Positions 16,544 through 26,202 of a DNA stretch of 64,000 nt are shown here, one piece after another. The first letter of the stretch is position 1. Each line of letters opens with the position of its first letter. Where the stretch lies: positions 4,099,727-4,163,726 of the forward strand of contig CM012955.1 of assembly GCA_000181795.3 (NCBI GenBank), given 5' to 3'. A model generated the notes under the pieces. It did no database searches and was not told the DNA's origin. It saw only the letters and a list, made by a program, of their open reading frames with translations. Position numbers and translations under genes: made by a program. Origin of the DNA: Trichinella spiralis. Its lineage: Eukaryota; Nematoda; Enoplea; Trichinellida; Trichinellidae.

Positions 16544-19669
<3,126 letters not shown>

Positions 19670-20406: not shown

Positions 20407-21120
20407 ATGTCGTCAGAAACAGTAGAACCGAAAGCGGACCCTGTTGCTGAAGTCGTGGAAGAAATAAAACATAATCCTTCAAGACCACGTAATAATTCGT
20501 TTGTCAAGGCAATTGTTTATGGTACAAAATCATGGACGTTGCCCAAGAAGTCGGCAGAAGACGATCAACTGTATTCGTGGATCCTTTATGTGAAGCCGTA
20601 TTTTGAAGAAAATTTGGAAAACTACATTGATAAAGTAATTTTTACATTACACGAAAGTTACAATCAACCAGTAAGAGGTAAGAGAATGCATTAAACTGCT
20701 ACTGCTTCCATCATCTATATCTTTTTTAAGTATGCAGACATCCGCCTTATTCTGTTTCGGAAGTTGGCTGGGGAGAATTCAAAGCAGTTATAACTTTCAA
20801 ATTCAAGGGCGTTTCGAAACATATGGTTTGTGGACGCTTTTTTATCAAACTGACATACAGGAATTATTTTTGAATATATTTAGGTTCGAATATATAAGAA
20901 AATTACTTTGTTTGACCCGCATATTCCAGATTTTACAGAAACTGATCCTTTGGTAGACGAGCATTATGGTGAATTGCTTTTTGAGAATGCACCTTTGGTG
21001 TTGCAGAGACACCTCAGAATCGACGAGGGGAAAACGAAAGTTGTTGGAAATCATTCCAAAGATCATTCGGCGCGAAGAATGGAGATCCGTACACTTGTTA
21101 ATGCTGCTCGGCGTTCATGA
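20407..21120 (+). CDS. GAS41/YEATS4-like YEATS-domain protein
   Basis: YEATS domains bind acylated histone lysines; GAS41 is a subunit of the SRCAP and TIP60 complexes. The ATG at 20407 (MSSETVEPKADPV) is the first good Met. Exon 1 (to 20677) has VKAIVYGTKSWTLPKKSAED and YSWILYVKPYFEENLENYI, with the family's LHESYNQPVR block. Exon 2 starts at 20731 (acceptor TTTTAAG) and continues in phase with HPPYSVSEVGWGEFKAVITF, the YEATS signature. Exon 3 from 20884 has ITLFDPHIPDFTETDPLVDE and YGELLFENAPLVL, like the C-terminal YDELxF block of GAS41. The frame closes at 21120 with no long coiled coil, whereas GAS41 normally has one, so the C-terminus is short or a further exon is missed. The exact exon 2 donor (20811 or 20826) is uncertain. 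Confidence 0.8.
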
Positions 21121-22735: not shown

Positions 22736-25700
22736 GGAAATCAGATGCCTTTGAATTTGGTAGACAGTACTTTAGTGTCTGTAGTAGAACGTAGAAGTGA
22801 AAATAAAAATGCAATAAATTCCGAATGGTAAGGAATTGAAACGTGCCATTTTAGTCAGAAGTAAAGCTGTACTTTAATTATAGCAATGACGAACTAGCAT
22901 TACATGAATATCAGTTGTTCGATGTTGAGCAGAAGACTATGGCTCAAGGTATGTATAAAAAGCATTTTACTGAATCGCAACTTATATCTGATGATTACAC
23001 AAAGTGAAACTGAAGGTGAATAATGCGGATGGTTCCTATTGCTTTAAAAATCATTTATTTTTAGATATCATTTTTCATTTTAACAGAAACGAGATTGATA
23101 AAGTGGTGATCGTAGTTAGAATGGCTATGAAATTTTTGAAAGAATGCGAAAACAAGAAGAAGACAGCTTTGGTATTAACTCACAGCAAATCTATGTTGGA
23201 CCTCATTGTTAAACAGCGCAATTTTGTTGCTAATTCTTTGGGATATGATATGAAACAGTGCGTAAATTCCTGTAGTTCGTACTGTGATAAACTATGCATT
23301 TTACCATGTCGAATGTTGATCTGTTGCAATGGTAATATGTATTTTTTTATTTGACTTGAAAATTTAAAGTGTATTTATAATTCAACAACGAACGATTTCA
23401 TAACTTACGGCTAGCTTTAGATATGTTAATGGAAATGCGCAGCAATGAAAACTTGATGAAATCCATTAGCCTCGTAGTTCTAGAATCATTCGATGTATTA
23501 CCGGCATTGATAAATGCAGATGAAATGATGTAAGCAAAATTCGTTTACATGTAATTTGTTAGCCTTCCTAGGGTTCAATATTTTTTAGGAATTCGTATTT
23601 TAAATGCTGTGTACAGTTCGAATAATTTGAAATTTTTACATAATTTATGACCATAAACGTATTAATTTAACATTAGGTTGTATCAAACTTTTTTGTTAAT
23701 AAATACGAACAGTCTCTTATAATTCTTAATAATGCATTATTGTTTACATATGGGAGTTGTTGAAGCATATTAAGTTATACTAATGACTTATATAATAATG
23801 GAGATGATAAATTACAAAAATATAATAGATATGAGCTTCAATTTTTGATTTTATGGAATAGTTGTTTTTTGGAAACAATACAGTAAATTGATGTGGAAGT
23901 ACAATGTGATTATACGGTAAAATTATTGATATTTTTCATTTTGAATGAACACATTAGTAAAATTTTCATTTGCTCTCATTTACAAATATGTATTTTATTT
24001 TAGTTACAGTTTAGAAAACTTTTCAATGGAAACTCGTGTAGTCATATTTACGAAGTCTGAGGAAGAAGCTTCTGCGATCAAGGAAGTCGAACGTTTGAAT
24101 AGTTCATTGGTTATAGAGATCGGAAAATGTTATAAATACTTGGAAAAAGACAGTAAATCATCGTTAGAATACATTGTTATGATATATTTATAGATTATTA
24201 TATTATATTATATTATATTATAGTTAGGATGCAGTATTAGAATTTTGCTATTTTATTTAAAATATTATGGAATACTTTAGGAGATTGAATTCGATGAGGA
24301 GTTGAAGTAGTTTTAGCTAGTGAGATGCAGTTATTTTAACAAAGAATCATTCCTTTTATAGGCGAAGTTTGCACAATTTTAAAATTGAAATCATTTTCTA
24401 AATTTAGATTTGAAGATGTGCTTATTTCATCCAAAAGTGGAAAATGATAACGTTCTGAATTGCAAAATAGACGCAGTAAACTTCTTGTTGCATCGCATCA
24501 TATTTACTCGGTGTTTGGTATTTGTTGACAAAGCGTGTCAAAAGTGAGGCCAAATTGCATTTGCTTTGAACGTTTTATGCTTTTTGTCTGTAGTGAAATA
24601 GATACTCTGGAAGCAAGATTAAAATGTTGGTATTGGTCAGCACAAAAAATTGGTGAGAAAGACGTCTGTAAAGGAACTGGACATAGTGTTATTAAAGATT
24701 CTTCGCGAGTTTTGATTATAACCGGTTTGGTATGATGTTTTACTATTTTAATACGTTAAAAAACTTTTTAAAAAAATAATGTAATGTTCAGAAAGAGTTG
24801 TTTTAGAATTTGTGTGTTTAATCATTGAATTGGGGTTGACATGTGAATAAGCTTTAATTTTTATCGACAAATTAAAATACATTATTTACTGGTTTTCAAG
24901 CTCCATCAGAAACGCAACATTATGGTTACGGAATCTTACTGCGGTATATCCGTACACTGCATGTTGTTCTTTCCTTATTTTAAATGATAAATTAATGCTC
25001 ATTATTCTGAATGTTTCGCTCAAGACTGTTTTGTGTAGTATTTTATGTTTCTTTTTAAGTGTTCCGCATTATAGTATTCGAGGAATCTATTTAAATGGAC
25101 TTCTTTTAGGCAGAGAATCAGTTAAGTGTTGGTTCGTTCAACCTGGTTATCTTATTTCACATTCCGAAAAAGTGCGCTGAATATCATAATCTGTTGCAAA
25201 ATATAAGTAACCAATGTAAGGATGAAATTTTGTACTCTCATAAATGACCGAAACATTTTGAAAGCTGAAACTTATTTTTAGCTGAATACTGCGCAGTCAT
25301 ATTTTTGATAATGAATCACAGCGACAAGGAGCATGTAAAAACGTTAACCAGAAAAGATGGCGTGCATTTTACGTTGTTGAAAGGCAATTACTCAACTTTA
25401 TTAATTAATAGAAGTGAAGACTCTAGAAAGACGCAGTCGACAGCTTCCAGTTACGAGAGTTCAGAGAAGAATTGGTCGACAGTGTTTGAAAATTCAGTTG
25501 AGGTGTCGGAGAAACGGATTTGCAAGAATGATTTAAGTCGGAAAAGTTATGAAGAAATTGTCGCGCCATATAATTTGAAGCCTCATAATATTGATGTGAA
25601 TCGATTGTTTTATTTAAAAAAAAGCATAAAGCCTCGGAAGATTCCAACAGCCGGAAAGTCTATACAATACGACCGTTCAGCTATGCTGAACATTTTGCAA

Positions 25701-26202
25701 ACGATGTTCCGCGGTGGGAAAAACCCATCTGGCAATATTCAAATCTCCAATAGCAACAACGGTACGATTTTTCAGAAATTATTTATTTGAATTTATTTTA
25801 CTTGCTGTAGAAAAAGCGGAAAATGAATCGACTGTTCAGAAGAATGTTGAAAAAATTGAAATGAAGAAGAATAATTCATCAATTTCCAAACAGGACAAAA
25901 GTATGAAATTATTAATAGACAATAACTGCTTTGAAAATACAACTTTAGAAAAGAATAAGCCGAATGCGCGGGAAGAAGAGCAGAGGATTGTTGCAGATCC
26001 CTGTTTGGAAGATGCTGAAGCAGTTGGCGATGATGATGAAGGCGAACAATTTGAATTTGCAAACGATGGTCTCAGTTATGATAACCAAACCGAAGCTTTT
26101 CGTCAAGTGATGATCAATGTCAACAACTACGCAAACATGCTGGCACTGATGCAGAATTACATTGAAAGTATGGTTCGTCCGCGCGACACCGTAAAGGAAT
26201 AA
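22736..26202 (+). CDS. Degenerate DEAD-box helicase plus Tudor-like protein (Yb/TDRD12-like)
   Basis: Successive exons joined in phase read a two-lobe helicase fold without catalytic motifs. Exons seen: from 22736, from 22885, 23065-23331, from 23418, from 24003, from about 24411, from 24594, about 24895, and 25065-25170. Lobe one has TALVLTHSKSM in place of motif Ia, MLICCNALDMLMEM where TPGRLLDLL is usual, LVVLESFDVL instead of a DEAD box, and RVVIFTKSEEEASAI at the motif III position. No P-loop GKT is found. Lobe two has RCLVFVDKACQ (motif IV-like) and DSSRVLIITGL (motif V-like). A Tudor-like strand set follows (VPHYSIRGIYLNGL, VKCWFVQPGYLI). Exons 25305-25761 and 25810-26202 add a basic then acidic tail ending at 26202. 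This order matches Yb/TDRD12 proteins of the piRNA pathway. The tail could be a separate gene. Confidence 0.55.
24194..24222. repeat. (ATATT)n microsatellite
   Basis: Five and a half ATATT-type units in an intron of the helicase-Tudor gene, close to an exon end at about 24170. Confidence 0.85.

Follow-up and report, generated by a model that had tools for sequence, protein, structure and literature searches.

A 64,000-nucleotide stretch of the Trichinella spiralis genome (the window; C3:4099727-4163726 in the 53.1 Mb, 14 contigs searched here) contains a ten-exon gene whose product resembles a DEAD-box helicase with replaced catalytic motifs. We consider it likely that this gene descends from Gemin3 (DDX20) as a paralog that has diverged heavily and lost catalysis. 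Support for this reading comes from the exon layout shared with DDX20, the loss of helicase motifs, a reading frame that is open in annotated proteins from five Trichinella lineages and constraint on the second lobe of the helicase core. An original prediction, made from the letters of the window, had instead likened the gene to the Yb/TDRD12 piRNA factors. The shared exon layout therefore makes a dead Gemin3 paralog, rather than a TDRD12/Yb protein, the most likely identity.

Exon layout and helicase core

The same genome encodes an intact DDX20 gene (C3:9634500-9641500), located with a human DDX20 core as the query (it agrees with PDB 2oxc at 205 of the first 206 residues). The assembled Trichinella DDX20 shares 91% identity with a protein of T. 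pseudospiralis that bears the name DDX20, and 35–43% with the DDX20 of other animals (best 120 of 4140 matches). A 766-aa T. nativa protein, in which DDX20 is joined to a V-ATPase subunit d domain, is probably a gene-model fusion.

The helicase parts of the candidate gene and DDX20 each contain seven introns, and the two series of intron phases are equal at all seven positions (1,1,2,1,2,0,1). The six exons between these introns differ by 0–15 nt (lengths below), or 33 nt summed. These comparisons of length and phase are alignment-free. The 88 exons predicted at 16 other loci supplied lengths for 2,000,000 random sets of six, and no set came as close (best draw, 39 nt); of 2,000,000 random phase series, 509 agreed. 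An intron-blind protein alignment places five of the seven introns at the same column and phase, with the remaining two off by one and four columns. As a control, we aligned 16 other helicase loci with a spliced aligner that recovers all seven introns of DDX20. Just four of their 103 introns lie within three residues of a DDX20 intron and in the same phase (one of them exactly), with at most one per locus. This control set includes one locus that is probably not DEAD-box (L052), two near copies (L055 and L056) and five short stretches. L055 (C1:6982503) and L056 (C1:3508517) are near-identical DEAD-box copies and, together with L054 (C3:11340643), form a set of closely related loci with one or two predicted core introns. 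Spliced alignment of the candidate DNA based on DDX20 recovers part of lobe two only, with wrong flanking exons, and scores 92.5 versus 49.9–68.1 in six shuffles.

The candidate gene spans 22745-26202 of the window on the + strand, with GT-AG introns and 640 codons free of internal stops; splice sites were picked by eye and the exons joined by script. The interval first proposed, 22736..25180, is too short, as the exons at 25282-25761 and 25811-26202 finish the gene. Its parts, together with an open reading frame (ORF) discussed below, are as follows.

Exon 1, 22745..22827, + strand: start codon and N-terminal region; ends in phase 2
Exon 2, 22884..22948, + strand: remnant of the Q-motif region; 16 DDX20 alignment columns have no candidate residue
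Exon 3, 23065..23331, + strand: P-loop through motif Ib positions of lobe one; 267 nt versus 270 nt in DDX20
Exon 4, 23421..23529, + strand: motif Ib–II region; 109 nt versus 112 nt in DDX20
Exon 5, 24004..24152, + strand: motif III region and linker; 149 nt versus 134 nt in DDX20
Exon 6, 24408..24543, + strand: start of lobe two and motif IV (KIDAVNFLLHRIIFTRCLVFVDK); 136 nt versus 142 nt in DDX20
Exon 7, 24594..24729, + strand: lobe two to motif V (SSRVLIITGL); 136 nt versus 142 nt in DDX20
Exon 8, 25110..25215, + strand: degenerate motif V–VI region (AENQLSVGSFNLVILFHIPKKCAEYHNLLQNISNQ); 106 nt, the same in DDX20
Exon 9, 25282..25761, + strand: final segment of lobe two (EYCAVIFLIMNHSDKEHVKTL) and beginning of the tail
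Exon 10, 25811..26202, + strand: tail, of low model confidence, with a predicted C-terminal helix; stop codon
ORF with the supposed Tudor-like pair, 25061..25177, + strand: noncoding in this frame, being made up of intron and an unused frame of exon 8

Of the helicase motifs aligned with DDX20 proteins, seven (I, Ia, Ib, II, III, V and VI) have been replaced, all of them in both T. spiralis and T. pseudospiralis. Motif IV is partly retained.

Motif I position, 23082..23105, + strand: NRNEIDKV; SKSGTGKT in Trichinella DDX20, consensus SGTGKT
Motif Ia: THSKSM; TPTCE in Trichinella DDX20, consensus xPTRE
Motif Ib: CCN-DM; GTP-GR in Trichinella DDX20
Motif II position, 23483..23494, + strand: ESFD; DEAD in DDX20
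Motif III position, 24050..24058, + strand: TKS; SAT in DDX20
Motif IV: LVFVDK, partly retained; VVFYNN in Trichinella DDX20
Motif V: ITGLAENQL; SSDLLSRGV in Trichinella DDX20, consensus STDLxxRGI
Motif VI: NLLQNISNQ; HRAGRAGRF in Trichinella DDX20, consensus HRIGRAGRF

With these substitutions the protein is predicted to be unable to bind or hydrolyse ATP or to unwind RNA. The gene model and the DDX20 alignment thus bear out part of the original prediction: exons joined in phase do encode a DEAD-box-like protein with replaced catalytic motifs (no P-loop GKT, ESFD, TKS), its lobe-two landmarks are recognisable, and calling it a degenerate DEAD-box protein was correct.

Profile comparison of the whole protein with the DDX20 family (hhalign) gives a score of 43.2; the best of 200 window-shuffled controls reaches 35.8. 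Pfam reports just Helicase_C, below the cut-off in both the candidate (E 0.1) and the T. pseudospiralis protein (E 0.006); the T6 protein has no match at E<=0.01. A single-sequence search of PDB sequences returns eight eIF4A1 sequences (E 0.18–0.23). A profile built from the Trichinella alignment finds no helicase among its 16 PDB matches up to E 10, which are 15 glycine receptor sequences (E 0.015–0.16) and one oligoribonuclease (E 0.31). AlphaFold2 modelling from the seven Trichinella sequences alone fails, with a predicted local distance difference test score (pLDDT) of 30.5. When an alignment of the DDX20 family is supplied, pLDDT is 57–78 in 23 of the 33 core blocks, a gain that is not independent. 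The best Foldseek rows for the AlphaFold2 model are DEAD-box proteins with low TM-scores, and many helicases are among the matches listed by VIA-align. The case shows how introns can place a protein that lacks a confident Pfam match and has almost no sequence similarity left.

Alternative origins and the supposed Tudor segment

The candidate has the same order of segments across two lobes as Gemin3/DDX20/DP103 (MEL-46 in C. elegans, in the available sections of PMC2711086), along with the seven-intron phase series and near-identical exon lengths of the DDX20 gene. It differs in having lost the P-loop, DEAD, SAT, motif V and motif VI residues, in being better kept in lobe two than in lobe one, and in having 248 aa after lobe two versus 73 in Trichinella DDX20. 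We propose that a DNA-level duplication of Gemin3, introns included, gave rise to the gene, and that the ATP-binding, ATP-hydrolysis and RNA-clamping motifs would then have been lost while the two-lobe layout was kept.

Several results weigh against this descent. Sequence scores alone fail to pick out Gemin3 as the closest relative: some other DEAD proteins match the candidate as well as DDX20 does in pairwise and profile comparisons, and a mixed DEAD profile scores the candidate higher. Phylogeny is uninformative, as the tree cannot place the candidate; a free tree sets it nearest L003, a locus that we take to be UAP56-like. The intron controls cover 16 loci, which leaves out 15 of the 31 DEAD loci counted. 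These points would fit descent from another part of the DEAD-box family, such as the UAP56 or eIF4A/DDX19 branch, in which case the degenerate protein would resemble DDX20 in intron layout by chance. We regard this as improbable: exon lengths and phases agree with DDX20 far past chance, the 16 control loci show the low rate of coincidence given above, and L003 itself has no intron in common by position and phase. The original prediction had allowed for an independent pseudo-helicase; the pseudo-helicase is real, and its exon layout ties it to Gemin3/DDX20.

Yb, BoYb, SoYb and TDRD12 have degenerate or weak helicase motifs as well as Tudor domains, and act with PIWI. That the candidate is a diverged member of this type, with a degenerate helicase and Tudor domains and a part in piRNA biogenesis, was suggested by its helicase motifs, which are indeed degenerate, and by a Tudor-like strand pair (SIRGIYLNGL, VKCWFVQPGYLI). 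That pair belongs to an unused frame of exon 8. With its TTTTAG acceptor, exon 8 (25110-25215) continues in phase 0 from the preceding exon and reads AENQLSVGSFNLVILFHIPKKCAEYH, the degenerate motif V–VI region of lobe two, which aligns to the corresponding stretch of Gemin3. All seven annotated proteins contain FNLVILFHIPKK from this DNA, and none contains GIYLNGL or CWFVQPGY from the other frame. A Pfam scan of the 640-aa protein up to E 10 shows no Tudor domain; the 39-aa ORF holding the supposed Tudor segment has no match, and the sole match in a 109-aa ORF (E 5.1) is to an unrelated family. The Tudor-family matches of the genome, at eight places plus two SMN-family places, all lie outside the window. 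The host was correctly guessed to be a clade I nematode, Trichinella. Clade I is listed without PRG-1/PIWI, and piRNAs are described as undetected outside clade V, in the available part of Sarkies et al. 2015 (PMC4323106); there would therefore be no obvious pathway for a piRNA role. Taken with the DDX20 exon layout, these results leave a TDRD12/Yb-type identity extremely improbable and remove a piRNA reading in a clade of nematodes for which PIWI is reported absent.

Thirty Piwi-domain (Argonaute) matches were found in the genome at the exon level, with Argonaute classes pooled. Five of the loci (C1:16202334, C1:16290398 and C1:14026645; C1:3190557 and C1:3417487) have near-equal scores and layout and are apparently recent duplicates.

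Constraint and a possible role beside Gemin3

A search of 5.8 billion proteins (4491 candidates) returned seven matches at E<=10, all from Trichinella and spanning five lineages (T6, murrelli, nelsoni, spiralis and pseudospiralis). The best is the T6 protein (95% identity, 100% of the query); the T. pseudospiralis protein is 79% identical, and T. spiralis Tsp_08716 is 100% identical over 73% of the query. The ten-exon gene model is in accord with these annotated proteins. None of the seven carries a Pfam domain or functional name in the protein search table. No homolog outside Trichinella appeared among 4491 and 77 candidates, in a search that needs shared 5-residue words and so leaves absence elsewhere unproven. 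A search of the own genome gave just the candidate gene itself (nine exon matches).

Between T. spiralis and T. pseudospiralis, candidate identity is 67.3% in the N-terminus, 80.6% in lobe one (133/165), 93.5% in lobe two (157/168) and 80.2% in the tail. DDX20 shows the reverse order of lobes, with 96.4% in lobe one (162/168), 89.3% in lobe two (151/169) and 85.9% in the tail (Fisher p 0.0005 and 0.018). In lobe two the candidate and DDX20 do not differ significantly (p 0.24). The pattern would be unexpected of a freely decaying copy and suggests a constrained non-enzymatic function. The catalytic lobe appears relaxed and lobe two held, which would fit lobe two as a contact surface. A functionless, decaying duplicate would account for the missing catalytic motifs, the mostly missing Q-motif region and the variation of annotated models among species. 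We nonetheless judge decay very unlikely, given that frames are open in the annotated proteins of five lineages and that lobe two is no less conserved than in the active DDX20.

The enzyme sites are lost and the exon layout is kept, and the product is therefore probably a non-enzymatic partner protein. It may serve the active Gemin3, or the SMN complex, as a partner or regulator, nested in Gemin3 descent, an idea that we find plausible while rating it short of an even chance. Such a gene would be expressed, and its product would work by protein contacts through lobe two and the ∼250-aa tail. The same genome encodes SMN and Gemin2 domains; a Gemin8 search gave no match anywhere, control genomes included, and is hence uninformative. 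Partners of the Gemin3 C-terminal region include SMN and Gemin4, as stated in sections of PMC10608988. Drosophila Gemin3 self-associates, and a form lacking the helicase core (Gem3-deltaN) preferentially binds the intact protein, according to portions of PMC6904755; a natural helicase-dead copy could therefore act likewise. Both would be Gemin3 forms without helicase activity. Gem3-deltaN differs in being an artificial deletion; the candidate evolved naturally and keeps its core in degenerate form.

The chief rival shares the Gemin3 descent and differs in the job: the copy may have left the SMN/Gemin3 axis for an unrelated, Trichinella-specific function that uses lobe two and the tail. We give this close to an even chance. 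It is favoured by the failure to find a relative outside Trichinella and by the weak likeness of the tail to Gemin3 C-termini (hhalign 25.9 against 109 DDX20 tails; maxima of 24.2 and 25.1 in two sets of 200 shuffles). Nothing direct speaks against it, and parsimony favours retained old contacts.

A partnership with Gemin3 could also take a particular form, which we hold to be rather doubtful. Trichinella may have split Gemin3 into a short active helicase without a long tail and a long-tailed dead copy that pairs with it. The dead copy would dock active Gemin3 in the SMN complex, or else hold active Gemin3 out. If so, it would be a natural counterpart of the laboratory helicase-deleted Gemin3, parting the enzymatic from the scaffolding task. 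The roles of the non-catalytic parts of Gemin3 are hard to part from those of the enzyme, and a dead copy beside an active one would be a natural separation; the conserved lobe two points to a surface for testing. In C. elegans, Drosophila and mouse Gemin3 is reportedly essential, and a 2023 paper links it to ATP-driven small nuclear RNA remodelling (PMC10584915).

Pseudo-helicases are an already known kind, and one of them, Utp25/Def, is widely conserved in eukaryotes. Like the candidate, Utp25/Def is a DEAD-box-like pseudohelicase, found in a ribonucleoprotein assembly machine; it is a different protein and acts in ribosome assembly (from parts of PMC9539457). Searches of the open-licence literature found no paper pairing Trichinella with Gemin3 or DDX20 or naming Tsp_08716, and none of the titles listed by wider searches of that literature concerned a catalytically dead copy of Gemin3. 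Within the reach of these searches, a helicase-dead Gemin3 copy that occurs naturally next to an active one is undescribed.

Annotated models and neighbouring genes

The annotated models of the candidate vary in several exons. P0002 and P0007 share its start methionine. The ESFD exon (motif II position) is left out of P0004 (Tsp_08716) and of P0006, one of the T. nelsoni models, which conceals part of the DEAD-box-like core. Exon 3 is shorter in both T. murrelli models and in the other T. nelsoni model. Within exon 10, a 48-nt in-frame GT...AG stretch (25901-25948) is coding in one of the seven annotated proteins (Tsp_08716) and in the present model; it is possibly an intron or a species-specific 16-residue insert.

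Two further genes lie upstream in the window on the same strand. A small YEATS-domain gene over two exons (20413-21117, +; Pfam E 1.9e-7 and 2.6e-7) adjoins the candidate. Exons of an SNF2-family ATPase, which we take to be a candidate HELLS/LSH-like gene, occupy 17902-19444 (+; SNF2-rel_dom E 3.9e-17 in 17902-18249).
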